From the NCBI GenBank assembly GCA_015060765.1, contig SUXW01000002.1, positions 1 through 64,000 on the forward strand: 64,000 nucleotides of DNA. The letters are read 5' to 3'. Position numbers and translations under genes: made by a program. The notes under the pieces were generated by a model. The model was not told the DNA's origin. It was given only the letters and a program-made list of their open reading frames with translations, and made no database searches. Positions 8,336 to 61,182 of the stretch are shown in pieces. Source of the DNA: Bacteroides sp. (lineage in GTDB: Bacteria; Bacteroidota; Bacteroidia; Bacteroidales; Bacteroidaceae). How positions within the stretch are numbered: the stretch's first letter is position 1; every line of letters starts with the position of its first letter.

Positions 8336-9466
8336 TTAATAGTTGGTTGTTTTGAACAAACGTTGGAAAGTCTCAAGCAAATACAGTTTGGCATTCATCC
8401 AAGTATGTCCTCCCGACGATACATGAAAGATATGATTGATGCGATGCTTGGTCAGCACATCATCAAAATCCGTTGCCAAATTATACAAGAAATCGGAATT
8501 ACCAACGCCCAGCCAAAGCAATTTCATGTCTTTGTTGGTCTTGTCCGGATTTTCATAAAAAGCCTTATAATTCTTTTCAAAATCATTTGCACTTATTCCT
8601 GAACTGTACGAACAAATCCAAGCAAAACGATCCGTATTCATCAAACCATTGCGTAAAGCTTGGGCACCGCCTCTGGAAAATCCTCCAATACCACGTCCGA
8701 GACGGTCATTAATTGTACGATAATTCTTGTCGACATAAGGAATGATATCCTTCATGAGCATTTCACTAAACAAATCAATTTTAGGCAATTCTGTACCAGG
8801 TGCAAAATAAGCGGCCGGATTACCATACGGCATTACTACAATCATAGGTTCGGCCTTACCCGATGCAATCAGATTGTCAAGGATAAAATTGGCACGTCCC
8901 ACCTTAAAGTAGACTTCTTCCGTATCGGTCGTTCCACTGATACAATAGAATACCGGATACTTTTTATCGCTATTTGCATCATAACCGGGAGGAGTATATA
9001 CAAGCATCCTACCAGTTGCACCAATAGAAGAGGAATCATACATTACATAATCCACATTACCATGAGGTACATTCTGAATGGAGTATGCCATCGGTTGTAT
9101 ATCTTTTACTTCGAGCATACTTCCCTTGAAATTTTCATTAGGGAAATAATCGGCATTACCAGGGTCCATAACACGTACGCCGTCCACTACAAATTCATAA
9201 GGATACATATCCGGTGCAACGGGGCCTACCGTTACTTCCCATACACCCATGTCATTTTTGACCATATCAACAGGTTGGTCCATAAACTGTCCGCTCAACT
9301 TCACTTCTTTAGCATTAGGAGCCATGTAGCGGAATGTTACTTTGTTATCAGCATGTATCTGAGGAGATGTAGTATTGGCCCATCTACGATTGTTTCCTCG
9401 TGGTTGAGCCATTATACATGATGCTGAAAGCAACATAAAAGCAATTAAACATAGATTCTTTCTCAT
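8336..9466 (-). CDS. CE1-like esterase with N-terminal E-set/CBM48-like domain (tandem paralogue)
   Basis: Same architecture as neighbour; GFSRGG, SSGGHTWMNAKLYL; start chosen at internal Met with signal peptide MRKNLCLIAFMLLSASC. Confidence 0.85.
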   Translation of the reverse strand: MRKNLCLIAFMLLSASCIMAQPRGNNRRWANTTSPQIHADNKVTFRYMAPNAKEVKLSGQFMDQPVDMVKNDMGVWEVTVGPVAPDMYPYEFVVDGVRVMDPGNADYFPNENFKGSMLEVKDIQPMAYSIQNVPHGNVDYVMYDSSSIGATGRMLVYTPPGYDANSDKKYPVFYCISGTTDTEEVYFKVGRANFILDNLIASGKAEPMIVVMPYGNPAAYFAPGTELPKIDLFSEMLMKDIIPYVDKNYRTINDRLGRGIGGFSRGGAQALRNGLMNTDRFAWICSYSSGISANDFEKNYKAFYENPDKTNKDMKLLWLGVGNSDFLYNLATDFDDVLTKHRINHIFHVSSGGHTWMNAKLYLLETFQRLFKTTNY

Positions 9467-9508
9467 AAATTTATTTAATGAATTAATTAATTGAATATAT
9501 ATTAGACA

Positions 9509-9537
9509 CAAACATACAACATAAATTTAATTCCAAA
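9509..9537 (-). promoter_or_regulatory. Candidate Bacteroidota sigma-AB promoter for the esterase pair
   Basis: Minus strand -7 TATGTTTG (9509-9516, plus-strand CAAACATA) with TTTG at 9534-9537; spacer 17, slightly short. Confidence 0.35.
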
Positions 9538-9636
9538 ATCATTTTTTTTGAAAAAAACACAACTGTTACAGTATCAATTAAATATATATTACTAAATTTG
9601 TTGTAGAATAGAAAATTTTTACAAAAGCAATATATC

Positions 9637-10437
9637 ATGAAAAAGACATCATCCATTTCTTTATTAATCATTCTTGTATTAATATGTACACTATGTTCAT
9701 GTAACCAGCAAACTTCAACTCCTTATCATATTACTCCTATACCCGACAATTCTTCTCCTAAGTTCATGCCAACCGCCCTATTCGCTCAGGCAACAGATAG
9801 CATGTTACAATCATTAGGAGTTGAAAATGGTATTCCATCATCCGTGTGTGCCATTTTGGTCGAAACGGATGGTAAACAGATTCTATTTGATACCGGCAAT
9901 GGTGTAGAAGATTCACAATTAATGCCCACTTTAAAGGCTAAAGGGATTGAAGCAAATGATATCGATTACATATTCATAACCCATCTACATGGGGACCATA
10001 TTGAGGGACTAACCCAAAATGAAAGTGCAGTCTTCCCAAATGCCCAATTATACATTCCTCAAGCCGAATATGACGGTTGGATGAAAATGGAAGAAACCAA
10101 GACTACGAAAATACGGAATCTCATTCATATTTATTCAAATAAGATTACTCTATTCGATGATAAGACTCCATTACCTCACGGAATATCTTCCATAGCTACA
10201 TACGGACATACACCCGGGCATACGATTTATCAATTGGGGCAAAACCTGATTGTTGGAGATATCATGCATGGAGTTGCATTACAAATTGCCAACCCGGAAA
10301 TTTGTGCTCGTTACGACATGGATATAGAAAAAGCCATCGAGTCACGTAAAGCAGTAATCAAACTTGCTAAAGACAAAGGTTTAGTTTTATATGGAATGCA
10401 TTTTCCAGAACCATACCAATTGAACTTTGCCAAATAA
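9637..10437 (+). CDS. MBL-fold metallo-hydrolase lipoprotein
   Basis: HLHGDH motif, GHTPGH, lipobox LCSC. Confidence 0.85.
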   Translation: MKKTSSISLLIILVLICTLCSCNQQTSTPYHITPIPDNSSPKFMPTALFAQATDSMLQSLGVENGIPSSVCAILVETDGKQILFDTGNGVEDSQLMPTLKAKGIEANDIDYIFITHLHGDHIEGLTQNESAVFPNAQLYIPQAEYDGWMKMEETKTTKIRNLIHIYSNKITLFDDKTPLPHGISSIATYGHTPGHTIYQLGQNLIVGDIMHGVALQIANPEICARYDMDIEKAIESRKAVIKLAKDKGLVLYGMHFPEPYQLNFAK

Positions 10438-14058: not shown

Positions 14059-14295
14059 TTAGTCAGGAAGTTTCACCTTTTCAGGTTCTTCAGATTGAAA
14101 GGTGTAGAAATCTGGAATCACATTTCCTTCAAGATCTTCAATAAAATCAAGGTTACATCCCAATCTACGTGCTTCTTCTGCATATGCTCGCAAAGCCGCC
14201 AATGCACATTGGTCTGTTCCGGTCAATACAAATACCGGAATTTCATTCATCACACATCGGTTCAATAATTTTCGTTGGTCTTTTGTTGCAGCCAT
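14059..14295 (-). CDS. Small conserved-type hypothetical protein (78 aa)
   Basis: Short non-overlapped ORF; TACCTTTG -7-like motif upstream at 14316-14323. Confidence 0.6.
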   Translation of the reverse strand: MAATKDQRKLLNRCVMNEIPVFVLTGTDQCALAALRAYAEEARRLGCNLDFIEDLEGNVIPDFYTFQSEEPEKVKLPD

Positions 14296-14327: not shown

Positions 14328-14359
14328 AAAAGTGGAAATCTACTGGAAATTTCCACTTT
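14328..14359 (-). terminator. Stem-loop terminator downstream of AEC transporter
   Basis: aaagtggaaat...atttccacttt inverted repeat immediately after the 14372 stop. Confidence 0.65.
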
Positions 14360-14371
14360 AATTTATGAAGA

Positions 14372-15322
14372 TTATGCTACCAATCTAGTTAACCATATCC
14401 AGAACGGAGCAGCAACAACAAACAGCAAGATACTGAATGCCAAAGACGATGTACCCGTCCGTTCATATAACTGATTCTGATTACCTATAATAATACCCGA
14501 AAAAGCAGGAGGTAAAGCGCCAGCCAAAACCATCATTTGTAGTTTATCGGCTTCCATATGGAAAAGCAATCCCACAATGAGAAGTACAGCAGGCATCAAA
14601 ATCAATTTCAATAAGGTATTATACACTACTTCACCATCCAATTGGAATTTCATATTACTTAAAGTGAGTCCGGCAGCGAAAACTGCTACTCCTGAGTTTG
14701 CTTTAGCTATCAATTCAAAATTCGGATCAAGAATGGTAGGGAAACGAATACCTAACAAAACAAGTATTACAGCCAATATAGGTGCCCAACATACCGGTTC
14801 TTTCAAAGCATCAAGTACCGGATTGGTTCTCTTGGTTAGTTGACTATTATCCACTCCCCCTTTACCTTTGTTCATCAAAGCTAAACCAATAGGAATATTG
14901 ACGGCATTCACCACGATAGATACAATAGCTACTACCAACCCTGTCGTAGCAGTTGCACCATAAATGGGTTCCAAGACAGCAAATCCCAAAAAACCGATAG
15001 TGGGAGAACCAGATATCAAAGCACAAACAGCCGCTTCACTCTTGGTATGTTTGAAAAATTTGTAACAAGAGAAATACGACCAAAGAAACAATGCCGTAAT
15101 GATAACAAGACTCACAATGGTAAGTTTCAAGTCATCGAACAACATAGCTCTGTCTGCTTTCACTATAGAGACAAATAAAGCAGCCGGCAGTGCATAAGTC
15201 AGCACCAATTTGTTCAATATTTTAGAATCTGAAGCATTAAATACCTTCCGTTTTCCAGCCATATATCCTAAGAACATAATAACAAAAATGGGAAGGATAT
15301 CTTTAATCAATATATCAATCAT
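14372..15322 (-). CDS. AEC (auxin efflux carrier) family transporter, YfdV-like; putative oxalate/formate carrier
   Basis: Ten-TM-like hydrophobic pattern of AEC permeases ([20 protein letters not shown]...); operonic with oxc and frc. Confidence 0.8.
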
Positions 15323-15329
15323 AAGTCTA

Positions 15330-17039
15330 TCATTTTATAGATGAATGAGGATTAAGATTACCTATATGACCACTTTCCACGCCTGCAGATGGGTCAATTA
15401 CACAATTGATGAGTGAGGGCTTTCCTGAAGCCAATGCTGCACAAAGAGCTTCTTCCAATTCAATCGGTTTGGTTACATGATAAGCCATTCCACCAAATGC
15501 TTCAATAATACGATCATAACGGGCACTTGGGGTAAGCGAAGTAGGTGATGGATCGGCCCCACCAGCCAAATTCACACCATCGCCCCGATAGATGCCATCG
15601 TTATTAAGCACAATCACCGTCACCGGAAGTTTATATCTGCAAATGGTCTCTATATCCGTTCCACTGAAACCGAAAGCACTGTCACCTTCAATGGCCACCA
15701 CCGGTTTACCACTTGTAACGGCTGCTCCAATACTGTAACCCATACCAATGCCCATTACTCCCCAAGTACCTGTATCGAGACGTAGTCGAGGATGATACAT
15801 ATTAATGATGTTACGCGTATTGTCCAATGCATTGGCCCCTTCATTCACGATGTAAATATCCTTATGATCCTTCAATACATCACTGACAATTTTTAATGAA
15901 TTGAAATAATTCATCGGTTGGGTAGGCTTATTAAGTTTAGCCCGCATTTTTCCCGCATTGGCATTTTTCACTTCATCAATTTGTTTTCTCCATTCTATGC
16001 AACAAGAAATTTCAAAAGGCTCCATCTTACAAATGAGTTTGTCAATAGAAACGCCGATATCGCCTACCAACGGGGCATCAATCGGACGATTACTATCCAT
16101 TTCTTCAGCACAGATATCAAGTTGGATAAATTTAGCGTCAGGATTCCATTTCTTCCCTTTACCATGATTCAACAACCAATTTAAACGAGCACCAATAAGC
16201 ATCACGACATCAGCCTGTCCTAAGACCAAACTCCGTGCAGAAGCTGCACATTGCGGATGATCATCTGGTAATAGTCCTTTAGCCATAGACATAGGTAAAA
16301 ATGGAATACCTGATTTCTCAATAAATTCCCTAATAGCTTCATCTGCTTGTGCATAAGCCGCTCCTTTTCCCAAAATAACTAATGGTTTCTTAGCAACTGA
16401 AAGCAGTTTCAACGCTCTGTTCACAGATGTGGACGAAGGCGAAAGTACAGGTGACGGATCGACCGGAGTGAAAAGAGATGCTTGTGCATCAGCCGCATCC
16501 ATAGTGGTACTCAACATTTCTGTGGTAATATCGAGATACACACCTCCGGGACGACCCGAAAGAGCGGTTCGAATAGCACGAGCCACTCCTATCGATATAT
16601 CTTGTGGACGATTAATACGATAAGCTGCCTTGCAAAATGGTTTGGCAATATTCATTTGATCAAGCCCTTCATAGTCACCTTGCTGTAAGTCAATAATATT
16701 GCGGTCGCTCGATCCACTAATCTGTATCATCGGGAAACCATTCACTGTCGCTTCCGCCAAGGCTACCAAGCCGTTCAGGAAACCTGGAGCAGATACGGTG
16801 AGGCAAATACCCGGTTTTTTGGTAAGATATCCTGTAATAGCTGCGGCATGACCAGCCGATTGTTCATGTCGAAAACCGATGTAACGTATACCGACCGCTT
16901 GCGCATGACGCGCAAGGTCGGTTACAGGAATACCTACCACTCCATAGATAGTCTGTACTCCATTGACTTTCAAAGCATCTACCATGAGATGCATACCATC
17001 GGTTAATCCGGCATTATGATTATCTGTTATTGATTCCAT
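15330..17039 (-). CDS. oxc: Oxalyl-CoA decarboxylase
   Basis: TPP-enzyme: [32 protein letters not shown] motif [30 protein letters not shown]-terminal [16 protein letters not shown]. Confidence 0.92.
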
Positions 17040-17060
17040 AATTATTCCTTTACATTTTAC

Positions 17061-18347
17061 TTATTTACAAACTACATGTTTACTTCGAAGAGTAGCGATT
17101 TCTTCATCAGAATATCCAACTTCTTTCAACACTTCCTCGGTATGTTCACCTAAAAGCGGAGCCGACTTGATTTGTGGAGTATAGCTCGAGAATTTCGGAG
17201 GGCATCCCACCGTAAGGAATTTACCACGCTTTGGTTGATCTACTTCCACGATGGTTCCACACTTACGTAAGGACTCGTCATTTTCTATTTCCTTCATACT
17301 CAATACAGGCCCACAAGGAACACCTATTTTACCCAAAGTTTCCACGATTTCCATTTTATCGTACTTCATGGTATAGGCTTCTACGGCACTGTAGATTTCT
17401 TCCTTAATTTCATATCGTGCTTCGGGTGTATTATACTTGGAATCATCCACCCACTCGGGATGACCAATAGCACGGGCTGCTGCAGCAAAAGGTTTAGTCT
17501 CATTCTGTAGAACAATGTATACAAATGCATTAGGATCCTTTTCCCATCCTTTACAACGATAACACCATCCCATCACCTGTCCACCTTCCACATTACCGGC
17601 ACGAGGTATTGTATCTCCAAATTTTTCTTTCGGATATTGCGGTAGATGTTTCAATACACCAGTATGCTCCAAGATGAGTTGGTCGCGTAACTTAATTCTA
17701 CATAAATTAAGTACAGCATCCTGCATAGATTGTTGAACAAAGCATCCTTCACCTGTTTTTTCACGTTGCATTAAAGCAGCCAATAAACCGATAAGTAAGT
17801 GCATACCCGTATTACTGTCTCCCAAAGCTGCTCCACTTTGAGTAGGTATGTTATACTCGCCTTTCCACCAACCAGTAGTAGCTGCAGCACCACCGGCACA
17901 TTGAGCCACTGGTTCAAACGCTTTCACATTAGCAAAGGGAGAATCATCATTGAATCCTTTAATCGTTCCATAAATTACTCTCGGATTGATTTTGTGTACT
18001 TCTTCCCACGAAAACCCTAATTTATCAACGGCTCCGGGATGAAGGTTTTCCACAAAGATATCAGCAGTCTTCAGCAAACGGGTTAGCACCTCCTTGCCTT
18101 CAGGCGATTTCATGTCAAGTTCTATGGAACGTTTGTTACAGTTCAACTGAAGATAATACAATCCGTCCAAATCGGGATAATCCAAAAGTTCCGTACGAGT
18201 AGGGTCACCGGTACCTGTCTTTTCTATCTTGATAACATCGGCTCCCAACCAAGCCAACATTTGTGTACACGACGGACCTGATTGTACTTGTGTCCAGTCT
18301 ATAACTTTAATTCCTTGTAATGGTGCAATCATATTCATTTCCTCCAA
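17061..18347 (-). CDS. frc: Class III CoA-transferase, formyl-CoA:oxalate CoA-transferase-like
   Basis: CAIB family; [13 protein letters not shown]-like [25 protein letters not shown] (catalytic Asp), [29 protein letters not shown]. Confidence 0.88.
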
Positions 18348-18449
18348 ATAATTTTAAATTAATAATGGGTTTACTGCACTCAACAAGGAAAAGAATAAGA
18401 TGTTTCTCTTTTCGAATAGGATTATAGAAAAACATCAATTATTAACATA

Positions 18450-18486
18450 ATTAGGGCGGAATTTGCTTAAGCAAATCCGCCCTAAT
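18450..18486 (-). terminator. Stem-loop between Spy-like gene and oxalate operon
   Basis: ttagggcggaatttgcttaagcaaatccgccctaa near-perfect inverted repeat; no long T tract. Confidence 0.6.
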
Positions 18487-18505
18487 ACCCTACGACACTC
18501 TATTA

Positions 18506-18850
18506 TCAACGAGGACCACCGGGACCTCTTCTGCGCATTTCTTCATTCATCTTGTCAAATTTGACTTTTTGTTCGTCAGTCAAAACAGCTTTAATTTTCT
18601 TGTTCATTTCTTCAAATTTCTTCTGCATTTCTTCCGGCCCACCCATGTTTTCGAAACCATTTTTGAACATGTCGAGATAGATTTCCTTAATCTTACCTTC
18701 CTGTTCCTTGTTCAAATCCAATTGTTCGTCCATGTATTGAACACTGAATTCTGCAATTTTTTCCGGATCAAATTGTCCAGGACCAACTTGTGCGTCTACT
18801 GATAAAACGCCTACCAATGCAACAAGTGCACACATTAATAATTTTTTCAT
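18506..18850 (-). CDS. Spy/CpxP-like small secreted protein (DUF4890-like)
   Basis: Signal peptide and charged helical repeats LNKEQEGKIKEIYLDMF / LTDEQKVKFDKM typical of LTXXQ proteins. Confidence 0.7.
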   Translation of the reverse strand: MKKLLMCALVALVGVLSVDAQVGPGQFDPEKIAEFSVQYMDEQLDLNKEQEGKIKEIYLDMFKNGFENMGGPEEMQKKFEEMNKKIKAVLTDEQKVKFDKMNEEMRRRGPGGPR

Positions 18851-19111: not shown

Positions 19112-21016
19112 TTACTTCAGCGCATCCAAATTCTGTTGGTTCATCAACTGCTTCCCTTCAGCTGTAAATAAATATTCTAAACGGGAAGCATATGCCTTTT
19201 CAATCTTACCACGTACCATTTTCATCGTACTGTTAATCATTTGATTCTGTTCAGTAAATGGTTCAGCCAACACCGCAAACGTACTCGGTAACCAACGTTC
19301 GGGGAACATACCCTCAAACAATCCACCTTTTTTGTACTTATTTACTTCGGCTTCCAATTTCTGAAGAGCCGCCTTACGTCCTTCTTCTGTAGATAAATCA
19401 AATCCTTTACGCTTCAGATTATCTTTATTAGGTACGATCAATGCAACTGTATAGGGAGACTGATTATTATAAAGCATCACTTGGTCGATATATTTGGATT
19501 GTCCTACAAATGCTTCTTCAATACCTTCAGGAGAATATTTTTCGCCGTCGCTGGAGATAAGGAGACTCTTGAAACGTCCTTTGACATAAAGCAATCCTTC
19601 TTTCGACATATAGCCCAAGTCACCGGTATACAACCAACCATCTTTCACGGTTTCGGCCGTTGCTTCTGGATTCTTCCAATAACCTGCCATTACGTTTTCA
19701 CCCTTCACTACAATTTCGCCTTGTTCACCTAACGGCAACTCTTTTCCTTCAGAATCGCAAATCTTCAGTTCAATGGGTTTGACAAGTTTACCGCTAGAAC
19801 CGAAACGATATTTTTCAGGTCCATTCGAAGACAAAACCGGAGTAGCTTCAGAAAGTCCATATCCTTGATACATGGGGATACCTATACCCACATAAAACTT
19901 TTGCAAATTCTTGTCAAGCAAAGCGCCACCACCGATAAAGAATTTCAGTTCGCCGCCAAAATTTTCACGCACCTTCGAGAAGATGACTTTGTCGAACAAC
20001 ACAACTAACGGCTTCAACAGATAACGCCATCCCTTGAAGTCAAGATTACTATCACCATAGTATATCTGACGTACCTTCATACCGAAATTGAACAATTTGA
20101 CGGTGGTATCTCCCTTTGCACGGATTCCGTTCTCTACATTCTTCTTGAAAGTTTTAGCCAATGCCGGCACACTGAGGATGAAATGGGGCTTCACTTCCTT
20201 GATGTTGAGCGGGATGTTCTTCAGAGATTCCATCGGAGTGCGTCCCACCTGTACGGTAGCTACTGTAGCACCTCGCGACATCATAATGTAAAATCCTACC
20301 ACATGAGCAAAACAGTGATCCAGCGGAAGAATAATGAGCGTACGCCATGTCTGATCGATATTCACCAAAGTAAGCGCCTGCTCTACATTCGAAGTATAGT
20401 TACGGTGAGTCAGTACTACCCCTTTAGGATCAGCTGTAGTACCACTGGTATAAGTAATAGTGGCAACATCATCGTTTTGGATGGATTGGGATATTTTCAA
20501 GAACTCCTCCATTGTATGTTCCGTTAGGAACTCTTCTCCCATCTTCACGACATCACCTATAAAGACCTCACCATCTTCATAATGGTCCTGTTCGTCAAAA
20601 ACAATCACCTTCTGCACTTCAGGCAATTGTTCCTTTATCAGACGAATTTTCTTCAATTGAGTTCCTGAAACCATAATAAATTTCACATCACCATGAACAA
20701 GACGGAACAACAAATCATTACTTTCTTCAAGCTTAATGGACAAGGGAACGTTCATAGCACCAGCATAGAACATGGCAAGTTCTCCAATAATCCACCAATT
20801 ACGACCTTCACTCAAAAGTGCCATACTATCTCCTTTCTTCACGCCCAAGGCTTGAAGGCCTGCTCCCAATTGATATACTTTCTCCTTTACTTGTGTATAA
20901 GTAGTAGGTTCAAACACTTTGCCGGTTTTTTCCAACAAAAAAGTATTGTTGGGATATAATCTTACCGACTCTTCAAATAAATCTACTAATGTTTTCTTCA
21001 TCTTATTATAATTCAT
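19112..21016 (-). CDS. AMP-dependent long-chain acyl-CoA synthetase
   Basis: ITYTSGTTADPKGVVLTHRN, YQGYGLSEATPVLS, GWLYTGDLG motifs. Confidence 0.9.
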   Translation of the reverse strand: MNYNKMKKTLVDLFEESVRLYPNNTFLLEKTGKVFEPTTYTQVKEKVYQLGAGLQALGVKKGDSMALLSEGRNWWIIGELAMFYAGAMNVPLSIKLEESNDLLFRLVHGDVKFIMVSGTQLKKIRLIKEQLPEVQKVIVFDEQDHYEDGEVFIGDVVKMGEEFLTEHTMEEFLKISQSIQNDDVATITYTSGTTADPKGVVLTHRNYTSNVEQALTLVNIDQTWRTLIILPLDHCFAHVVGFYIMMSRGATVATVQVGRTPMESLKNIPLNIKEVKPHFILSVPALAKTFKKNVENGIRAKGDTTVKLFNFGMKVRQIYYGDSNLDFKGWRYLLKPLVVLFDKVIFSKVRENFGGELKFFIGGGALLDKNLQKFYVGIGIPMYQGYGLSEATPVLSSNGPEKYRFGSSGKLVKPIELKICDSEGKELPLGEQGEIVVKGENVMAGYWKNPEATAETVKDGWLYTGDLGYMSKEGLLYVKGRFKSLLISSDGEKYSPEGIEEAFVGQSKYIDQVMLYNNQSPYTVALIVPNKDNLKRKGFDLSTEEGRKAALQKLEAEVNKYKKGGLFEGMFPERWLPSTFAVLAEPFTEQNQMINSTMKMVRGKIEKAYASRLEYLFTAEGKQLMNQQNLDALK

Positions 21017-21189: not shown

Positions 21190-22089
21190 ATGAAAAAGAG
21201 TAAATATTGTGGAGTAGTTGTACCTATGGTCACTCCAGTAACCTGCAATGGAGTATTGGATATAACAGCCGTAAAGCGCATCATAAATAGTTTTGTTAAC
21301 GCTGGTGTATCCCCATTGCTAATGGGTACTACAGGAGAAGGCAACTCCGTTTCTGCCTCTGACGGTCTCTTGATGGTAAAAACTGCTGTAGAATGCGCCA
21401 AAGGAGAAATAATCATTTATGCCGGATTGACTGGTACTTGTGTTTCCGAACAAATAACAGCAGCCGAAGCATATACCCAAGTGGGTGCCGATGTAATTGT
21501 TGCTACATTACCAAGCTATTATGCACTAACCGACCAACAAATGTACAATTATTACAAAACATTGGCCGACAACATTACCGGTCCGCTAATGCTTTATAAT
21601 ATCAAGGCAACCACTCATATGTCTATCCCCGTAAAAGTAATCAAGGAACTAAGTAACCACCCTAACATTGTTGGTCTGAAAGACTCTGAACGTGATTTGG
21701 AAAGAATGGACGCCTGTATCGCTATTTCTCGTGAGCGTGAAAACTTTGCGTATTTCTGCGGATGGGCTGCCCAATCGGCCCATAGTTTGGAATTAGGTGC
21801 TGATGGTATTGTTCCTAGTACCGGCAACTTCGTACCTAAAATGTTCCAAGCATTGTACGAAGCAGCCATACAAGGAGATATGGACACCGCTAACCGTCTA
21901 CAAGCCGAGACCAACGAAATTGCCAAAATTTATCAAGAAGGACGTACTTTGGGAGAATCACTCACCGCTTTAAAAGTCATGATGCAAACAGATGACTTGT
22001 GCGCCCCATTCATGCTTCCTCCTCTCACAAGATTGTCTAACGAAGAAGAACAACAAATCGCCAATCGTGCCCGTCAAATTATTCATTAA
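21190..22089 (+). CDS. DapA/N-acetylneuraminate-lyase superfamily aldolase
   Basis: MGTTGEGNSVS, LYNIKATTHMSIP, Schiff-base Lys region NIVGLKDSERD. Confidence 0.85.
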   Translation: MKKSKYCGVVVPMVTPVTCNGVLDITAVKRIINSFVNAGVSPLLMGTTGEGNSVSASDGLLMVKTAVECAKGEIIIYAGLTGTCVSEQITAAEAYTQVGADVIVATLPSYYALTDQQMYNYYKTLADNITGPLMLYNIKATTHMSIPVKVIKELSNHPNIVGLKDSERDLERMDACIAISRERENFAYFCGWAAQSAHSLELGADGIVPSTGNFVPKMFQALYEAAIQGDMDTANRLQAETNEIAKIYQEGRTLGESLTALKVMMQTDDLCAPFMLPPLTRLSNEEEQQIANRARQIIH

Positions 22090-22101
22090 AAAACATCAGA
22101 T

Positions 22102-23664
22102 ATGCAACAATCCATCATGCATTGGATAGACTACGTTATCGTAGCCATATCCGTCATATTAGCTGTAGGTGTAGGCATCTATTTCTCTCACCGACAGAAA
22201 GATACCAAAACTTACTTTGCTGGAGGAGGGAAAATACCTGCATGGGCTATTGGTATGTCTATATTTGCCACACTTATCAGTAGTGTTACATTTTTAGCAT
22301 ATCCTGGAGCCGCCTATGCAGGCAACTGGATATTATTGGTACAAGGATTGATGGTACCCATCGTATTATTATTCATGGTGAGTTTCATTGTTCCCCTTTT
22401 CCGTAAAATGATCAGAATCAGTGCATACGAATACTTCGAACGCCGTTTTGGCTTCTTTGCACGAATATACAGTTCCTTTGCTTTTTCTTTAGGTCATTTC
22501 TCAAAAATGGGTACTGTATTCTTCCTTGTAGGACTGGCATTATCCGAACTGATGGGCATTGACATATACTTTATTATTATAGTATTAGGAATAGCCATCA
22601 TCATACTCACTCTTTTAGGAGGTATGGAAGGAGTTATTTGGATGGATGTTATCCAAGGATTCATGTTGATAGCAGGAGGATTGACTTGTCTGTTTATTCT
22701 ATTGTTTACTCCAGAAGGTGGACCTTGTGAAGTTTTGTCAATGGCTTGGGAACAAAAGAAGATTGATGTAGGACCATACGACTGGGATTTCACCCAACTG
22801 ACATTTATAGTCATGGTTTTCAATGGAATATTTTATGCTATACAAAAATATGGTACCGACCAAACTATCGTACAACGTTATTTAGCTGCTAAAGATGACA
22901 AGAGCGCCAAGAAAGCTGCATACATGGGGGTACTGATGAGTGTACCTGTATGGACATTGTTCATGTTGATAGGCACCGGCTTATACATTTTTTATCAGAC
23001 AACAGGCAATCCACTTCCAGATGGAATAAAAGCTGATGCAGTATTTCCATACTTCATCGGTATGGAATTACCAATAGGTATTACAGGGTTAGTCGTTGCC
23101 GCATTAGCAGCTGCAGCCATTTCAAGTCTTGATAGTGATATGAACTGCTTGGCTGCTATTGTGGTAGAAGACTATTACGTCCGTTTCCGACCACAAAGTA
23201 CAGACAAACAACGATTGAATTTAGGCCGTTGGATTGTATTCCTCACCGGTGTTGCTTCCATCGGAATTGCCATATTGTATGTAGAATGGGGTGGCGAAGG
23301 AGTTTTAGGAGCCGTTTTCTCTCTATACGCCATATTTTCAGCTGGTATCGTTGGAATCTTCCTGCTAGGTTTGTTCAGCAGAAGAGCCAACAAACAAGGA
23401 TTATACGTAGGTATAGCAGCCGCTATATTATTTACAGCATACGCTATGTTGACCTCCACCAAGTTCGACTTAGGTGATGGAAAGAAGATACTACTTGATT
23501 TAGGAGAATGGAATTTTACACACCATAAATACATGTTGGGTGTATATAGCCATTTGATTGTACTAGTCGTTGGCTACTTTGCCAGTTTCCTATTCAAGAC
23601 ACCGTTGGCCGATAAGAATTTGACTTTTTATGGCTATTGGGAAAAAAGAAAAGAAAACAAATAA
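22102..23664 (+). CDS. Sodium:solute symporter (SSS family)
   Basis: Multi-TM; AGGGKIPAWAIGMSIFATLISSVTFLAYPGAAY; AAAISSLDSDMN sodium-site motif. Confidence 0.9.
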   Translation: MQQSIMHWIDYVIVAISVILAVGVGIYFSHRQKDTKTYFAGGGKIPAWAIGMSIFATLISSVTFLAYPGAAYAGNWILLVQGLMVPIVLLFMVSFIVPLFRKMIRISAYEYFERRFGFFARIYSSFAFSLGHFSKMGTVFFLVGLALSELMGIDIYFIIIVLGIAIIILTLLGGMEGVIWMDVIQGFMLIAGGLTCLFILLFTPEGGPCEVLSMAWEQKKIDVGPYDWDFTQLTFIVMVFNGIFYAIQKYGTDQTIVQRYLAAKDDKSAKKAAYMGVLMSVPVWTLFMLIGTGLYIFYQTTGNPLPDGIKADAVFPYFIGMELPIGITGLVVAALAAAAISSLDSDMNCLAAIVVEDYYVRFRPQSTDKQRLNLGRWIVFLTGVASIGIAILYVEWGGEGVLGAVFSLYAIFSAGIVGIFLLGLFSRRANKQGLYVGIAAAILFTAYAMLTSTKFDLGDGKKILLDLGEWNFTHHKYMLGVYSHLIVLVVGYFASFLFKTPLADKNLTFYGYWEKRKENK

Positions 23665-23682
23665 ACAAGATTAATACTTCAA

Positions 23683-24828
23683 ATGAGACCTATCATTCTT
23701 CAACAACCGCAACGAATTGTTTTCGGAACAGGATGTATATCCCAGTTCTGCGATGAATATACTAAGATGAATTTCAAGCGTCTTTTCATTCTTACAGCTC
23801 CTCCCATTGTACCACTTATAGAAAGTACAATCAAGAAATTAAACGAAGCCGGAATTACGACACTTGTATTCGATAGAATTACTCAAGAACCATCAGTAGC
23901 TGATTTCAAATCCATCTTAAACATCGCACAAGATTTCCATACCGACAGTGTGATTGGTATAGGAGGTGGAAGCGTACTTGACATCAGCAAGTTGATAGCT
24001 ACATTGATTCATAGTGAGCAACAAGTAGAAGATTTATTTGGTATTGGATTGATTTCCCAACGAGGATGTTGGTTCGCTTGTATGCCTACAACAGCGGGAA
24101 CAGGTAGTGAAGTATCTCCCAATGCCATATTGTTGGACGAAAGGGACAAACTGAAAAAAGGGATTGTCAGCCCCTATCTCATTGCTGACGTAGCATACGT
24201 AGATCCTCAATTAACAGTAACTGTTCCAGCCAAAGTAACCGCTGAAACAGGAATGGATGCCTTGACACATTGCATAGAAGCCTATACCAACAAGTTTGCA
24301 CATCCTGCAATTGATATGTATGCACTAATGGGTATCGAATTAATTGCCGCCAATTTACTTAAAGCAGTAAAGAACGGAAACGACATAGAAGCCCGTGAAG
24401 CATTATTGTTAGGAAGCCTATATGGCGGATTATGTTTAGGGCCAGTTAACACGGCTGCTGTACATGCATTGTCATATCCATTAGGAGGAGAATTCCATAT
24501 ATCACACGGACTTTCGAACGCCATACTCCTACCTTCAGTCATGAAGTTCAACCGAAGTGCCAACCTCAAGAAATACGCAGAAATAGCCATTGCATGCGGT
24601 GCTCCACAAGGTACCAACGATGATGAGACAGCACAAAATGGAATAGACTTCATTACCCAATTGTCAAAAGATTGTGGTATTCCTACCCGATTGACCGAAA
24701 TAGGGGTTCCGCATGAAGCAGTAGAACGAATGGCAAAAGCAGCAATGGATGTTCAAAGATTATTGAAAAACAATCCAAGAGAAGTAACCGAGGCAGACGC
24801 CAAAGCCATTTACGAAAGTTTATATTAA
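23683..24828 (+). CDS. Iron-containing alcohol dehydrogenase
   Basis: GIGGGSVLDISKLIA, TAGTGSEVSPNAIL, MDALTHCIEAYTN, HALSYPLGGEFHISHGLSNAILLP. Confidence 0.9.
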   Translation: MRPIILQQPQRIVFGTGCISQFCDEYTKMNFKRLFILTAPPIVPLIESTIKKLNEAGITTLVFDRITQEPSVADFKSILNIAQDFHTDSVIGIGGGSVLDISKLIATLIHSEQQVEDLFGIGLISQRGCWFACMPTTAGTGSEVSPNAILLDERDKLKKGIVSPYLIADVAYVDPQLTVTVPAKVTAETGMDALTHCIEAYTNKFAHPAIDMYALMGIELIAANLLKAVKNGNDIEAREALLLGSLYGGLCLGPVNTAAVHALSYPLGGEFHISHGLSNAILLPSVMKFNRSANLKKYAEIAIACGAPQGTNDDETAQNGIDFITQLSKDCGIPTRLTEIGVPHEAVERMAKAAMDVQRLLKNNPREVTEADAKAIYESLY

Positions 24829-24847
24829 GGATCAAATTATTTTAATT

Positions 24848-25891
24848 ATGAAATTACCCATATTGGCTATAACCATGGGCGATCCGGCTGGTATTGGACC
24901 GGAAATTGTTGTACGTGCCCTGAACCATAAAGAAACTTACAACCAATGTCGTCCCATTGTAACAGGAGATGCCGAAGTCATCCGATTAGCAATCAAAGCT
25001 TTAGGATTGTCAATAAAAGTAAATACCATCAAAAAAGTACAAGATGCCCTTTTTAAATATGGCTGCATTGATGTTTATGATTTGGCTTGTATTGATATGT
25101 CTACATTCGAATTTGGCAAAGTATCCCCACAATGCGGAAATGCTGCTTTCGTTTCAATACGTAAAGCTATAGATTTAGCTATGAACAACGAAGTGGATGG
25201 TACCGTTACAGCACCACTTAATAAAGAAGCATTAAATTTAGCTGGACATCATTTCGACGGACATACAGAAATATATGCTACATTTACTCAAACAAAAAAG
25301 TATGCCATGTTATTGGCAGATGAGTTCTTACGCGTTATTCACGTCTCTACTCATGTATCACTTCGTGAGGCATGCGATAGAGTAAAAAAAGAACGTATCA
25401 TCGAAGTTACAGAACTTATCCATGATGCATGTATTCAATTCGGAATAGACAATCCTCGTATTGGAATCGCCGGGTTAAACCCCCACTCCAGCGACAATGG
25501 GTTATTTGGATGGGAAGAAGAAAAAGAAATCATTCCTGCCGTCAACGAACTAGGTAAAAAAGGATTCAATGTAGATGGTCCAATACCCCCAGATACATTG
25601 TTTGCCAAAGCAAAATGTGGACAATTCGACGGTTGTGTAGCGATGTACCACGACCAAGGACATATACCATTCAAAGTAGTTGGCTTCAACTGGAATAAAG
25701 AAACCGGAAAAATGGATAGCGTTAAAGGGGTAAACATTACGTTAGGACTACCCATTATACGGGTATCAGTCGACCATGGTACAGCCTTTGATGTAGCAGG
25801 CAAAGGAATAGCAAGTGAAGACGCTATGATGTTGTCTATCGATTATGCCACCCGAATGGCTATCAGTCGTCTTGAAAAAATGGGAAAATGA
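24848..25891 (+). CDS. PdxA2-like 4-phospho-acid dehydrogenase (4-hydroxythreonine-4-P dehydrogenase family)
   Basis: MGDPAGIGPEIVVRAL, TAPLNKEAL, GHTEIYA, MYHDQGHIPFK, VSVDHGTAFDVAG; ATGA overlap with DUF1537 kinase gene. Confidence 0.9.
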   Translation: MKLPILAITMGDPAGIGPEIVVRALNHKETYNQCRPIVTGDAEVIRLAIKALGLSIKVNTIKKVQDALFKYGCIDVYDLACIDMSTFEFGKVSPQCGNAAFVSIRKAIDLAMNNEVDGTVTAPLNKEALNLAGHHFDGHTEIYATFTQTKKYAMLLADEFLRVIHVSTHVSLREACDRVKKERIIEVTELIHDACIQFGIDNPRIGIAGLNPHSSDNGLFGWEEEKEIIPAVNELGKKGFNVDGPIPPDTLFAKAKCGQFDGCVAMYHDQGHIPFKVVGFNWNKETGKMDSVKGVNITLGLPIIRVSVDHGTAFDVAGKGIASEDAMMLSIDYATRMAISRLEKMGK

Positions 25892-26985
25892 ACCGGAGTC
25901 GAATCGTCGTTATAGCTGATGATATAACCGGTGCTGCAGAATTGGCAGGCATCGGTTATCGTTATGGATTGAATACAATTCTAACAACCAACATAAAGTG
26001 CCCTATTCCCGATTGCGAGTTATTGATAATCGCAACAGACACTCGTTCCATGGATAAAAAAGAAGCTATTCAAGAGACGCAAAGTATTACCCAATATTTG
26101 AAACAAACTACAATTACCCACCTTTTCAAGAAAACTGATTCTGCGTTACGAGGACATATAACAGCAGAATTACATACGTTATTGGAGAATACCGACTATA
26201 AGGAAGTTTTGTTATTACCACAAAACCCAACAAAAGGACGATATATACAAAAAGGTATTTATTATATCAACGATATTCCATTGCATAAAACAGCATTCGC
26301 ATACGATCCGGAATTCCCTATGCAAACTTCACATGTAAATGAAATTATCCAATCTTTTTCAGTGAAGGATGCTAATAACTACGAACAAGTAAAAAAGTAC
26401 GTATCACAAACCTCCAGACATACCTTACTGGCTGGTGCTGCCGATTTATTTACCGCTTATTTAGAACATCTTGGTTATACACCAAAAGATATTCCCTCAT
26501 TTAAAGGATTATCTGCTTCCAAAATATTGATAATATGTGGAAGTACCCAAAGTGTATCTTTGAAAGAGAGTGCCTATGTTTCCAACCATCAAGTGTATTC
26601 ATCAACACTTCCACCCGAAACATTCTACAATGGTAATATAGATATTCGTTGGATTCAAAAAATAAAAAAAGAATACTCACAAAACGATGGATTTATACTT
26701 ACTACCAATGGATATTTACCACAAAAAGGGAAAGAGTTTGCTATACAATTACGACAAACCATGGCAAAGATTATCAAGGAATTGGTAACCGACCAATTGC
26801 CATACGAATTTATTATTGAAGGTGGAGCTACAGCATTCGCCATCCTTAAAGAATTGGGATGGAGTAATTTTGAGTTAAGCGATGAAATAGTCCCAGGAGT
26901 AATCAGAATGAAATGTAATTCTTTCACACACACACACATCATATTAAAACCAGGAAGTTATTCATGGGGAAATTTGTTCGAATAA
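25888..26985 (+). CDS. Four-carbon acid sugar kinase family (DUF1537)
   Basis: VIADDITGAAELAG, FKKTDSALRGHITAEL, LLLPQNPTKGR. Confidence 0.88.
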   Translation: MNRSRIVVIADDITGAAELAGIGYRYGLNTILTTNIKCPIPDCELLIIATDTRSMDKKEAIQETQSITQYLKQTTITHLFKKTDSALRGHITAELHTLLENTDYKEVLLLPQNPTKGRYIQKGIYYINDIPLHKTAFAYDPEFPMQTSHVNEIIQSFSVKDANNYEQVKKYVSQTSRHTLLAGAADLFTAYLEHLGYTPKDIPSFKGLSASKILIICGSTQSVSLKESAYVSNHQVYSSTLPPETFYNGNIDIRWIQKIKKEYSQNDGFILTTNGYLPQKGKEFAIQLRQTMAKIIKELVTDQLPYEFIIEGGATAFAILKELGWSNFELSDEIVPGVIRMKCNSFTHTHIILKPGSYSWGNLFE

Positions 26986-48759: not shown

Positions 48760-51700
48760 TTAAATTTTATCGAACCAATACATCTGGCCATTTTGCTCCC
48801 CCGTCCTTAATTTATACAAATCCTTTATTTTCAGGTTTTTAATTAGGACTTCAATCTTACCAGTACGCATATTTACCTTCTTCAGCATATACTTTCCCGG
48901 CGAAAGTTTCAATAGGGTTTCCATCGGTTTTTGAGAATAAATAAGATAGCCAATATCAGATTTTCCCAATTGCCAATAACTACCATCCGATGGAAGAGTT
49001 AACATTTTAGCCACATCATTTAGAAAATCCTTATCGCTAATAGGCAAAGCCGGACAAGATCCTCCTCCCATCAAGACCCCCCATGCCACTTGAGGATAAG
49101 ATTGCCCGTAATAGACTACCGCTTTATCAGGATATCTCATCCGATATTCCGAAACAGCCTGATAAGCTTCATCGATGGTCGTTTTACCGACTTTCATTTT
49201 ACGGGCATGTTGGCGAGGGGCCATATTCTTTCCACCTTCGGGTGCATATACCCCATCCGTTTTATAATGCCAATAACGTATATCAATAATATCCACTACT
49301 TCCGAACGTATCGGATCATTCAATATAGCATCTTGAACATCCTTGGTAGCACTTAAAGCTATCAAGACTTGCTTTCCTGTTTCTTTCTTCCATTCGGCAA
49401 TGACATCTAACCAAAATTGTACGAAATGAAGCGGTCCTGTATATTCAGCACTGACAAGATGAACTACATTGGGATGGTCGGCCAATTGTTCCAAACACAT
49501 ACGGATATAGTTACGATGCAATTTTCTACGGACCGGATGATTCACATCATAGAACATATCAGCTACAAACACCCGCTTGTCGCCTGCAAAATTTACCGGT
49601 TCAGGCATATCAGTACCATTGATATTATTGACAGACCTCCATGGAGAATCGACCCAATGAGCACCGGCTTCCAAAATGTTGTGCTGGAAATAATTCTGAT
49701 GGAATAACAACAAGCCATGTTCCGCACCTTTGGCTGCAAACTCTTTCATACGCTGCCAATACCATGCATTCGGACGATTCAAGTCGTATTTGCTTAATCC
49801 CTCCCATGCTGTTCCTTCACCGCTTCGCGCAAACGGTTGTTCATAGAAAGGTCCCCATACATCACCATCACGACGACGTACCCGTTCGTGATCATCTCTA
49901 CGGCGATCATACCATAAACCATAGTTATGATCCAAAACCAACACATTATTCTTGACCATATAATGAATGGTAGAATCAATTCGGTCGGTCAATCCCCATC
50001 CTTCTCTTCCCGGTACAAAACGGGTAATATGCGGTTTTGCTTTAGGCAACCAATTACTCTTCAGTTTGCCGCTCCACCAAGGTACCACCGCACTATGTCC
50101 AACCAAAAGAGCACCATCCTTTACAATCTTTCCATCTACAACGCCAATTTTAGGAGTATTCTTTATGATTTCTTTCGCTTTTTTCTGCTTGATATCATCC
50201 ACATTTTTCAAACCTTCTATCGATATAGATGCGGTATAAGGAGCATCACAAATCCATTTTTCCATTGTAAGACGAGGTTCATAAGCCTCTTTTGCCAACA
50301 TCATGGCCTGTTCTACCGTAGGACTACTGGTGGCATTGGTTGATCTTGGCAGTATACGAGCCTGACTATCCACATCCTTACCCAATCGTTCTTTCAATTG
50401 TGCATAAAACAAGCTACGAGGCTGGACATGATTATCCATTTCCGCCCAATCACCATCTCCCCAACATTGTGCCCATGAACCATAAGTACGATTCTTAGCA
50501 TCTTCCGAGGGAGAAAAACAATGAATCATGGATGCAGTACATTGCCAAAACATACTGTTGGCAGTATTCCATCCCGCTCCATTTTTATTTTGACCTAAAT
50601 TTTTAAATATCAAATCGTTGCCATCTACATTGACAACATCAAACAACAAGCCACAAGCCCAAGTATCTATAGAACCGCTAAAGCCCAAAGATTCATACGT
50701 ATCACATTGTACAAAAGCATTCGGACCGGGGGCACAATATCCTGCAGCATAATCATGAATACCATGTACCGACAAACACCGTTGGAACAAAACTTGTTGT
50801 CCATAAGTCAAAAATGTACAGCGACGCATCCCTCCTATTTCGGAAACCGGTTCGTTTGAAACGCAATCTTCCACTGTCACTTTGGAAGCGGTATGTTGTA
50901 CAACTACTGCACTGCCTGCAAAATGTTTGAAATTTACCCGACGTACCCAACAATTCTCTGCATTTTCGATGGATACTCCTGTCCAACAATGATCTTCATC
51001 CTTCGGATATCGTTTGTCATAATCAGATATCAAAGTCATGTTTTCTATACCAACATCACCAATCCTTCCATTCCATACATAAGGCATTACTAATGAAGTC
51101 CCCCATTGAGCATCCAATGCCACAGTCAGCGGAGCATCCAAGGTAATGGTATTGCCATCCACTTGGCATACCAGTCTATCCCATAAGATATCCACTTCAC
51201 CCGGTTTCCAACCGGAATAACTATTGGCACCACCATGTTCATAGCAACCGATTGATTCGATCCATTCCTTCGTTGAAGGACGTAATACCTGTACTCTATC
51301 ACCTACTTTCAAGCGATTCGCGCCAAGCACTTGAAAACAACAAGCATTAACAGGTACATATTCCGTCTTTACTTTTAGCGTATCGATTGTTTTCTTGTCA
51401 TTTTCTCCTTCTATATAAATCAATGAGCCACGATCAACACCTTTCTTAATCAACACTGTTTGCTCGCAATCCATGCCACGGAGTACAACTCCGGATACCG
51501 TAATACGCAAAGCCTCATTCAATTCAAATATTCCCTTGTCAAGCAATACTGCTCCTCTAAAACCATTTGCGTCGACGGGTAAAGAAGACACGTAATCAAT
51601 TGCCTTTTGAATGCGTGAAGAATTATCGCCCGATTTCCAAGATACAAAAACAACATTCCCAACATCGGGAATAGTTATTTCCGAACTACGATAACCACAA

Positions 51701-51849
51701 GTCGAAAAATCCAAGATACGGTTACCGCGTTCATCACTAAGGTAATTCAATTCACCCTTTTGCACCTTCAAAGGAAAGGTTTGCGCATGCATACCATACG
51801 CAAATCCCATTCCTAACAACATGATATATAACCCTTTTAAACTAATCAT
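48760..51849 (-). CDS. Large secreted protein: pectate-lyase-like beta-helix N-terminus plus DUF6298-like C-terminal domain
   Basis: Signal peptide; beta-helix style repeats (GVSIENAENCWVRRVNFKHFAGSAVVVQHTASKVTVEDCVS); C-terminal DHNYGLWYDRRRDDHERVRRRDGDVWGPFYEQPFARSGEG. Confidence 0.75.
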   Translation of the reverse strand: MISLKGLYIMLLGMGFAYGMHAQTFPLKVQKGELNYLSDERGNRILDFSTCGYRSSEITIPDVGNVVFVSWKSGDNSSRIQKAIDYVSSLPVDANGFRGAVLLDKGIFELNEALRITVSGVVLRGMDCEQTVLIKKGVDRGSLIYIEGENDKKTIDTLKVKTEYVPVNACCFQVLGANRLKVGDRVQVLRPSTKEWIESIGCYEHGGANSYSGWKPGEVDILWDRLVCQVDGNTITLDAPLTVALDAQWGTSLVMPYVWNGRIGDVGIENMTLISDYDKRYPKDEDHCWTGVSIENAENCWVRRVNFKHFAGSAVVVQHTASKVTVEDCVSNEPVSEIGGMRRCTFLTYGQQVLFQRCLSVHGIHDYAAGYCAPGPNAFVQCDTYESLGFSGSIDTWACGLLFDVVNVDGNDLIFKNLGQNKNGAGWNTANSMFWQCTASMIHCFSPSEDAKNRTYGSWAQCWGDGDWAEMDNHVQPRSLFYAQLKERLGKDVDSQARILPRSTNATSSPTVEQAMMLAKEAYEPRLTMEKWICDAPYTASISIEGLKNVDDIKQKKAKEIIKNTPKIGVVDGKIVKDGALLVGHSAVVPWWSGKLKSNWLPKAKPHITRFVPGREGWGLTDRIDSTIHYMVKNNVLVLDHNYGLWYDRRRDDHERVRRRDGDVWGPFYEQPFARSGEGTAWEGLSKYDLNRPNAWYWQRMKEFAAKGAEHGLLLFHQNYFQHNILEAGAHWVDSPWRSVNNINGTDMPEPVNFAGDKRVFVADMFYDVNHPVRRKLHRNYIRMCLEQLADHPNVVHLVSAEYTGPLHFVQFWLDVIAEWKKETGKQVLIALSATKDVQDAILNDPIRSEVVDIIDIRYWHYKTDGVYAPEGGKNMAPRQHARKMKVGKTTIDEAYQAVSEYRMRYPDKAVVYYGQSYPQVAWGVLMGGGSCPALPISDKDFLNDVAKMLTLPSDGSYWQLGKSDIGYLIYSQKPMETLLKLSPGKYMLKKVNMRTGKIEVLIKNLKIKDLYKLRTGEQNGQMYWFDKI

Positions 51850-53540
51850 CAGAACAAACTTTTACGTTTAGCCAAAGTATCATAATTATTCTTTACATCA
51901 GCCCAATCAATTTTTTGAGTAGGATCGATACCGTTGATATACTTTTCAATATTGGTATATCCATCACCATTGCAATCCTTTACAGCATCCGATGCGTCGT
52001 TAGGATTCAATCCATATCTTATTTCCCATGCATCGGGCATACCATCCTTATCCGTATCCAAATAAGAAGTACCTTTATATTCAGGAAGTCCCCCTACCTG
52101 CTGAGGATGAGTGATAATACCTTGTTTATAAGAATCGGCAGGCAAACGACGTTTTACGTACGGACTTACGAATTCCCTGGCATCTTTAGCATAAATAGCT
52201 TTACCTGTCTTTACAGACTTAACAATACGTTCATCTACAGCATCACGTTTCGGGAAAGTTGCACCGGCATTACTTAAAACAAACTGATAAGCTTTATTGG
52301 CATCCATAATGGTTACATTCGGCATAGGGAAAGGTTTGTCCATCTTGATTTGCTTCAACGTTGCTTCCATTTGCGCTTCATCCACCCCCGGTTGTACGCC
52401 ACCGTCCCAATTATTCTTGGTCACCCGACTATTACCATGCACTCGGTTACCATCCACGTATGCACGGCCATACACGCCCCTATTCGCCTTATCCCGACCG
52501 GATTCTGGCTTTACGATACGATATGCTATCGGCTTATCTTTCGGAGTAATGGGTCCCGGCTTGAAATTATTATTGATGATATTAAGACGACTGGTATTGT
52601 CTCCACCATCCACGGTACGGTTCCACCAATTGAAAGTGATGTTATTTACAAAATTGAAATCACCGTTCATGCCAATAGAACAATTACGACTGATGTTCGA
52701 TGCAAACAAATTACGACAGAACATACTATTATGTCCCCCTATCGTTGCACCAAAGGAATGATTATACATATCCAAACATTCAGAGAATATAGAATTCTGA
52801 ATCGTTATGTTTACTGTAGGGAGTTTCAAACCACGTCCTAAAGAATCGCGATTATATACATGACGATATACCGACATATTTTCATCCAGTCCCCAACTAG
52901 CTGAACAATGGTCAATGATGACATTACCTACACAATTGCCGCCCAATGCATCATCACGGAATGCTACATCAGTCTGTCCACGACGGAAACGCATGTGACG
53001 GATAACAATGTCATGTGTATCCATTAGTACAGATGCTCCCGTTACACATATACCGTCTCCCGGAGCCGTTTGCCCAGCTATAGTTATATAAGGAGCACGA
53101 ATGTTTATAGGAGATTCTAAATGTATTACCCCAGAAACATTAAACACCACAATTCGCGCACCACCAGCTTCACAAGCTTCACGAAGTGTACCCGGTCCTC
53201 TATCAGCCAATGATGTAACCACCATAACCTTACCGCCACGTCCACCAGGGGTATAGGCACCTCCTCCTTCCGCACCTGGGAAAGCCGGTATATCGGCCTT
53301 TACCAAATCTTCTGGTTGGGAAGCCCATGGTTTGTATGGACGTCCTTTAGAAACTTCAGCCATCACTACAGGCAAAGCCTTTTCCCACGCCTCATCCGAC
53401 AAACGGTCTATTTCAATTTGTTGACGTTCGATACGTGCCTTGATGGAATCCGGTATCGTAGGATATTGAGCCATCAACTGAAATGCACATGCAATAAAAC
53501 AACCTACTGCTATTGTCCTCATTCTATTCATAATATTCAC
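51849..53540 (-). CDS. PL1-family pectate lyase
   Basis: AFPGAEGGGAYTPGGRGGKVMVVTSLADRGPGTLREACEAGGARIVVFNVSG; VIIDHCSASWGLDENMS; C-terminal DTDKDGMPDAWE Ca-binding-type repeats. Confidence 0.9.
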   Translation of the reverse strand: MNIMNRMRTIAVGCFIACAFQLMAQYPTIPDSIKARIERQQIEIDRLSDEAWEKALPVVMAEVSKGRPYKPWASQPEDLVKADIPAFPGAEGGGAYTPGGRGGKVMVVTSLADRGPGTLREACEAGGARIVVFNVSGVIHLESPINIRAPYITIAGQTAPGDGICVTGASVLMDTHDIVIRHMRFRRGQTDVAFRDDALGGNCVGNVIIDHCSASWGLDENMSVYRHVYNRDSLGRGLKLPTVNITIQNSIFSECLDMYNHSFGATIGGHNSMFCRNLFASNISRNCSIGMNGDFNFVNNITFNWWNRTVDGGDNTSRLNIINNNFKPGPITPKDKPIAYRIVKPESGRDKANRGVYGRAYVDGNRVHGNSRVTKNNWDGGVQPGVDEAQMEATLKQIKMDKPFPMPNVTIMDANKAYQFVLSNAGATFPKRDAVDERIVKSVKTGKAIYAKDAREFVSPYVKRRLPADSYKQGIITHPQQVGGLPEYKGTSYLDTDKDGMPDAWEIRYGLNPNDASDAVKDCNGDGYTNIEKYINGIDPTQKIDWADVKNNYDTLAKRKSLF

Positions 53541-53609
53541 TTTAAATTCAATACGTTTATAATAAAAGACGAAACGAATCCTTTTCCGTACTCTTTACAA
53601 ATAAAAAAA

Positions 53610-53643
53610 GTCATTCAGAGTTTGAGACCTTACTCTGAATGAC
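53610..53643 (-). terminator. Intrinsic terminator downstream of DUF3826 gene
   Basis: Minus strand gtcattcagagt...actctgaatgacttttttt. Confidence 0.8.
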
Positions 53644-53665
53644 CCTATCTATCATGCCGCTTCTA

Positions 53666-54331
53666 TCAGATTGTACCTCCGCGTTCTTTGATACGCTTGT
53701 ACCATTCTTCACGTTCTTTCACCAAGTCATATCCCCGTTTAGAAAGATAATTATTGATGCGACCTTTGTATTTTCCGAAAACTTCATGTTTCTTTTTGGA
53801 ATTTTCTGCATCGATGGCAAGTTCACGAGCCTCAATCAACCATGCCATAATCTGTGCTTTTTCTTCTTCCTTTAAAGATGGAATCATGTCAAGAGTTGCA
53901 TCGTATGTTACTTTCACAACATTATAGGTCATCCCATCCTTTACTGCAGCAATCTGTTCTTCATCCAAGAACAATGAAAGTGCTGCGGGAAAAGCGAAAT
54001 GAGAACGATAAAGTTTGGAATCTTTTTCATTTTCAGCTACTTTAATTGAAATTTGTTTCTCATCGCCCTTCAATGTCTCTTTTGCTATTTTTACTAACGA
54101 ATCACGGACTTCATAAATGTCATTCAACTCAAAATAGCGATTGGCAATGATGTATGTTACCTCTCGTACGGAATTTGTATCCTGCAGGCCCAACTTATCA
54201 ACAATTTTCTTCGAGCGTCCTAAAATGGAGTTCACATATTCCGGATTACGTCCTTTGTCATTCAATTCTATTGCGTTGGCAGATAATACCACTGCCAACA
54301 ACAATAGAATCATAAGATTTAACTTTTGCAT
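53666..54331 (-). CDS. DUF3826-like secreted protein
   Basis: Signal peptide; charged helical protein between two PL1 genes, DUF3826-type FAFPAALSLFLDEEQIAAVKDGMTYNVV. Confidence 0.7.
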   Translation of the reverse strand: MQKLNLMILLLLAVVLSANAIELNDKGRNPEYVNSILGRSKKIVDKLGLQDTNSVREVTYIIANRYFELNDIYEVRDSLVKIAKETLKGDEKQISIKVAENEKDSKLYRSHFAFPAALSLFLDEEQIAAVKDGMTYNVVKVTYDATLDMIPSLKEEEKAQIMAWLIEARELAIDAENSKKKHEVFGKYKGRINNYLSKRGYDLVKEREEWYKRIKERGGTI

Positions 54332-54369
54332 TAACTTAATAATTTAATTCAGTAATTAGCTAAAACAGT

Positions 54370-57823: not shown

Positions 57824-57847
57824 TAACTATTAAAAACACATATTATT

Positions 57848-61180: not shown

Positions 61181-61182
61181 TT

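Follow-up and report, generated by a model that had tools for sequence, protein, structure and literature searches.

Does a member of the Bacteroidaceae carry, in three adjacent genes, the means to take up oxalate and break it down? Gut bacteria that break down oxalate matter for kidney stones and for the tolerance of herbivores to oxalate-rich plants, and the question is raised by a stretch of 64,000 nucleotides, analysed here as a whole and called the window, in which a sequence-only reading had proposed a tight, co-directional trio of CoA-transferase, thiamine diphosphate (TPP)-dependent decarboxylase and AEC permease genes. The open reading frames and family scores confirm this trio (Table 1), and the assignment of the DNA to a Bacteroidota host was borne out. 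All three proteins exceed the curated equivalog cut-offs of their families (Frc, 673 bits versus 504 for TIGR03253; Oxc, 945 versus 739 for TIGR03254; the AEC protein, 428.5 versus 404 for NF007384, YfdV), which is far beyond chance. We propose that the genes form a type II oxalate-degradation operon, by which oxalate would be imported and converted to CO2 and formate, and give this reading a probability of roughly 0.88. Gene identity, linkage, catalytic residues, selection and lineage are shown by the analysis.

Table 1. Features of the frc-oxc-AEC locus and its immediate surroundings (window coordinates).
Feature	Coordinates	Strand	Remarks
Terminator-like hairpin directly after the AEC gene	14329..14359	-	13 bp stem, T-rich tail; folding z = -4.2
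yfdV-type AEC-family transporter, proposed oxalate carrier	14372..15322	-	316 aa; predicted PIN-like fold
oxc (yfdU), oxalyl-CoA decarboxylase, TPP-dependent	15330..17039	-	569 aa
frc (yfdW), formyl-CoA:oxalate CoA-transferase, class III	17061..18332	-	423 aa
Shine-Dalgarno-like GGAGG	18341..18345	-	8 nt before proposed frc ATG
Strong palindromic hairpin between LTXXQ gene and frc	18448..18487	-	ends approximate
LTXXQ/Spy-like small exported protein	18506..18850	-	upstream neighbour, outside operon
FadD-like AMP-binding acyl-CoA ligase	19112..21016	-	upstream neighbour, outside operon

The genes follow each other on the minus strand in the order frc, oxc, AEC, with gaps of 21 and 7 bp, and are followed by the terminator-like hairpin. 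Upstream of frc, the stretch 18440-18520 also folds (z = -3.9); it has a weak T-tail and is absent from the list produced by the terminator scan, and its hairpin probably terminates the preceding transcript. With hairpins on both sides, frc-oxc-AEC thus look like a single transcription unit of their own. Bacteroidota promoters are not of the sigma-70 type, and a sigma-70 promoter scan was uninformative. The FadD-like acyl-CoA ligase gene is a conserved upstream neighbour in the close relatives of the window, and it is this gene, rather than the pectin polysaccharide utilization locus (PUL) named in the sequence-only reading, that accompanies the operon. The proposed link to pectin breakdown rested on co-occurrence in the window, and a functional tie is not supported, as the evidence goes no further than this and the susC/susD locus lies tens of kilobases away. 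That locus (48760-63492) comprises a SusC/SusD pair after a DUF4992/DUF4957/DUF5123 protein and a divergent DUF6298 protein, as in pectin-type PULs; two open reading frames of this region (51849-53540 and 54370-56121) have no Pfam match. Divergent from the FadD gene, genes for a DHDPS-family aldolase, an SSF sodium symporter, an iron-containing alcohol dehydrogenase, a PdxA-like dehydrogenase and a DUF1537-type (SBD_N/NBD_C) kinase stand in a row (21190-26985, plus strand), in what looks like a catabolic cluster for four-carbon sugar acids (threonate-type). On the other side, a short open reading frame of ~78 aa (14059-14295, minus strand, starting MAATKDQRKLLNRC) lies between the AEC terminator and a GH9-like gene.

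The host genome (2.9 Mb) is that of a congener of Phocaeicola barnesiae and is 84% complete, so that absences from it are provisional. P. barnesiae DSM 18169 carries the operon as well (contig NZ_KB894652.1) and is a named culture-collection strain, so its function and the transport of oxalate by the AEC protein are directly testable. The closest operon, which is 89-92% identical and has the same FadD and LTXXQ neighbours, comes from a sheep-colon Bacteroidaceae metagenome-assembled genome (MAG); other close relatives are, by their record titles, mostly MAGs from the hindgut of ruminants or other herbivores. Of 151 genomes sampled within Bacteroidaceae, 5 have an Oxc above cut-off, and of 393 sampled throughout Bacteroidales, 6 do, whereas 56 of 99 genomes of another Bacteroidales family, designated f26, encode it (E <= 1e-180). 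The latter fraction resembles that published for S24-7/Muribaculaceae, where 19 of 30 genomes carry frc, oxc and an adjacent permease gene (Ormerod 2016, PMC4936053), and f26 is therefore probably Muribaculaceae. The operon is thus rare in Bacteroidaceae and represents a sub-lineage distinct from the one common in f26.

Linkage is nearly invariant: in each of the 47 Bacteroidota loci the gene immediately upstream of oxc is frc, and in 42 the one immediately downstream is the AEC gene, four others ending too soon to show it. Only one Bacteroidota locus with ample sequence (L051, 2547-6062) lacks an AEC gene after oxc, and the gene in its place is read as pyruvate:ferredoxin oxidoreductase-like. 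At another locus, in Bacteroides sp. (UBA7333) (L050), a YfdE-like second class III CoA-transferase gene (8763-9905) comes right after frc-oxc-AEC. Purifying selection is indicated by a dN of 0.05-0.15 in the two closest comparisons, where dS is saturated.

For the AEC protein, the only member of its family found in the host genome, there is no close solved relative. Its predicted model (pLDDT 76; the alignment used for prediction left out two plasmid rows) matches PIN8 and LYCHOS with TM scores of ~0.68-0.82 by query length, and this predicted fold indicates a transporter, not which substrate it carries. YfdV itself has no proven substrate (PMC3720670). No OxlT above cut-off was found in the 84% complete host genome, where the best match reached 45 bits versus 335, and this absence fits an uptake of oxalate by the AEC protein.

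Substrate, transport, regulation and physiology are inferred. In the cycle that we propose, the AEC carrier would import oxalate; Frc would form oxalyl-CoA by passing the CoA of formyl-CoA on to oxalate, with release of formate; and Oxc would decarboxylate oxalyl-CoA to formyl-CoA and CO2, consuming one proton and returning formyl-CoA to the cycle. Formate would leave the cell, perhaps through the same carrier in exchange for oxalate, and part of it may be captured by formate-tetrahydrofolate ligase, which the host genome encodes together with a pyruvate formate-lyase-like enzyme. Searches of this 84% complete genome returned neither a formate channel nor a formate dehydrogenase, and the same searches of the near-complete P. 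barnesiae genome returned neither of these nor OxlT, which would leave AEC exchange or diffusion as the exit for formate. A formate channel was also considered as a partner of the operon and rejected: none turned up in the searches of the 84% complete host genome and of P. barnesiae, and strong FocA/FdhC-type matches occur only in some other carriers, so its co-occurrence with the operon is not general. The operon would probably help to detoxify oxalate and to relieve pH, and would add some ion-gradient energy to that from sugar fermentation, rather than support growth on oxalate alone.

The operon might instead serve mainly acid or oxalate tolerance, as yfdWU do in E. coli, with no net consumption of oxalate and the AEC protein as an accessory. 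The shared order with yfdWUV favours this, as does the failure to find a formate dehydrogenase in the host genome; in E. coli, yfdW and yfdU are required for oxalate-induced acid tolerance, yet oxalate is not consumed (PMC3720670), so that the presence of the genes does not by itself prove catabolism. Yet neither an EvgA-type regulator nor a yfdX-like gene is adjacent to the operon in the window. Moreover, plant oxalate is expected in the herbivore hindgut, from which most of the carrier MAGs derive, and in mouse faeces the strongly increased proteins included Frc and Oxc of Bacteroidetes (Tanca 2017, PMC5348496). We regard a role confined to tolerance as possible but not the probable one.

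A second alternative concerns Frc. Its nearest solved structure is E. coli YfdW, with an alignment spanning nearly the full length, and in the alignment the equivalents of Asp169 (the nucleophile), Gln17, Lys137 and Glu140 are all conserved, while Tyr139 is replaced by Phe. The gene had been called as 17061-18347, from a TTG at 18347. This start is probably wrong, since the TTGGAGG found there contains the ribosome-binding site (TTGGAGGAAATGAATATG, with GGAGG 8 nt ahead of an ATG at 18332); we propose the ATG instead, as E. coli YfdW and Oxalobacter formigenes Frc begin at the same point in the alignment. What sets the protein apart is its glycine-rich loop, an element reported to bind oxalate and to mark out formyl-CoA:oxalate transferases, the loops being said to encode specificity (Mullins et al., PMC3720670). 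In our alignment the loop reads GGGGQP in the Frc of O. formigenes (258-263), E. coli and Acetobacter, and SGGGQP in four environmental Pseudomonadota, but EGGQV(M/L) in all 31 readable loci of Bacteroidaceae and family f78; Cetobacterium has EGGQV, Parvibacter EGGLVL, and f26 EGSGVL or EGGGVL. The window's own loop is EGGQVM, which in an ungapped register keeps two glycines and loses the tetraglycine; moving the register by one residue could set its GGQ on the canonical GGQ. Conservation of this loop across an operon that remains linked to oxc makes a tolerated or adaptive variant likelier than a loss of function.

The altered loop poses a concrete question of enzymology, namely whether Frc is strictly a formyl-CoA:oxalate transferase or accepts other or broader donors (e.g., succinyl-CoA or acetyl-CoA) and primes the cycle without YfdE. 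Such breadth would agree with the consistency of the replacement, with its related variants in three other groups, and with the finding of Frc as the sole class III CoA-transferase detected in the 84% complete host genome, where neither a YfdE primer enzyme nor a second enzyme of the class was found and a promiscuous Frc would be left as the possible primer. Against it stand the score above the formyl-CoA transferase cut-off, the conservation of the other main active-site residues, the constant position of frc beside oxc, the possible register shift, and the locus L050, which has the variant loop and yet also the YfdE-like second transferase. We thus consider a broadened Frc unlikely. Still more speculative is the extended conjecture that the EGGQV-loop Frc of gut Bacteroidota and Fusobacteriota is functionally distinct, with broader or different CoA donors, and self-priming without YfdE, while the AEC protein acts as an oxalate:formate exchanger. 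If this were true, a compact three-gene kit would replace OxlT, a formate channel and YfdE, and would have moved between phyla in animal guts.

Oxc appears, from its sequence, to be a true oxalyl-CoA decarboxylase. The TPP-enzyme motifs quoted earlier, including DYEGLDQ, are present, and the nearest solved structure is E. coli Oxc (2q27), aligned over nearly the full length. The equivalents of O. formigenes Glu56, Tyr120, Glu121, Arg160, Lys222, Asp306, Tyr483 and Ser553, which we take to be catalytic or ADP-site residues, are all kept in the alignment. That Oxc might be some other TPP enzyme, such as a 2-hydroxyacyl-CoA lyase, in which case the operon would handle a different substrate, is rejected: although such lyases are homologues, some of them carrying the label oxalyl-CoA decarboxylase in the list of PDB structures, the window's protein reaches 227 bits against the lyase model (cut-off 600), keeps Tyr120, Glu121, Tyr483 and the C-terminal ESGHIG that have no aligned counterpart in the lyase 8vzk, and falls among Oxc sequences in a tree where the lyase forms a very long outgroup branch. 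A place in the lyase clade was what the sequence-only reading had named as the main finding that would speak against it, and the protein lies well outside.

Where does this operon come from? Its proteins are 77% (Frc), 69% (Oxc) and 67% (AEC) identical to those of Cetobacterium, 60%, 65% and 62% identical to those of E. coli, and ~56-61%, ~50-58% and ~50-60% identical to those of f26. The Bacteroidaceae operon is thus nearer to Cetobacterium than to f26, and for Oxc and AEC E. coli is also nearer. The trees of Oxc and Frc place f26 together with the actinobacterium Parvibacter, and Cetobacterium near the Bacteroidaceae sequences. A single Bacteroidota clade received AU p values of 0.05 (Oxc), 0.0006 (Frc) and 0.03 (AEC) in the first trees, which speak against it, but it was not rejected once the long Parvibacter and Oxalobacter branches had been removed (p = 0.19 for Oxc, 0.33 for Frc). 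Independent acquisition by Bacteroidaceae and f26 was therefore not upheld, and since the rejection vanishes in this way for Oxc and Frc, we limit the claim to two distinct Bacteroidota sub-lineages in these trees, each with members of other phyla beside it. The operon has likely moved between phyla, judging from these relationships. Complete frc-oxc-AEC operons also occur on plasmids of Cetobacterium somerae (NZ_CP092522.1) and Klebsiella variicola (NZ_CP103421.1), the latter typed as conjugative, which shows a route for such movement.

Contrary to what had been implied, the trio is not new to Bacteroidota: it was published for the Bacteroidales S24-7 in 2016, and expression of its two enzymes in mouse-gut Bacteroidetes in 2017. 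In S24-7, the permease gene lies beside oxc in all 19 oxalate-positive genomes and is absent from the others (PMC4936053), and the permease was proposed to take up oxalate (Ormerod 2016, PMC4936053); that oxc is widespread in S24-7/Muribaculaceae was later confirmed (Lagkouvardos 2019, PMC6381624). Bacteroides and Muribaculaceae figure among the carriers of oxalate genes in a survey of 2025. Little has been written on operons of this kind in Bacteroidaceae, and we found no account in the literature of a frc-oxc-AEC operon in Phocaeicola.

Compared with known systems, the window's operon has the same gene order and orientation as yfdW-yfdU-yfdV of E. coli, a match that the sequence-only reading had correctly drawn. 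The full yfdXWUVE set differs by its yfdX and yfdE genes, both lacking in the window, by EvgA regulation and by the GGGGQP loop; it is the L050 locus that reproduces yfdWUVE, with GNRD in its second transferase where YfdE has GNxH. O. formigenes uses the same two enzymes in the same reaction cycle, but relies on the OxlT antiporter, whereas no OxlT above cut-off was found in the window's genome. The S24-7/Muribaculaceae cluster shares the three functions, the order Bacteroidales, the gut setting and a permease gene beside oxc; f26, probably the same family, differs in its EGSGVL loop (versus EGGQVM) and in its grouping with Parvibacter. The Klebsiella plasmid operon has the window's gene order. 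The closest operon found outside Bacteroidota is that on the C. somerae plasmid, which differs in its Fusobacteriota host, its plasmid location and the two-component system and cupin gene nearby, but has the same gene order and the same EGGQV loop.
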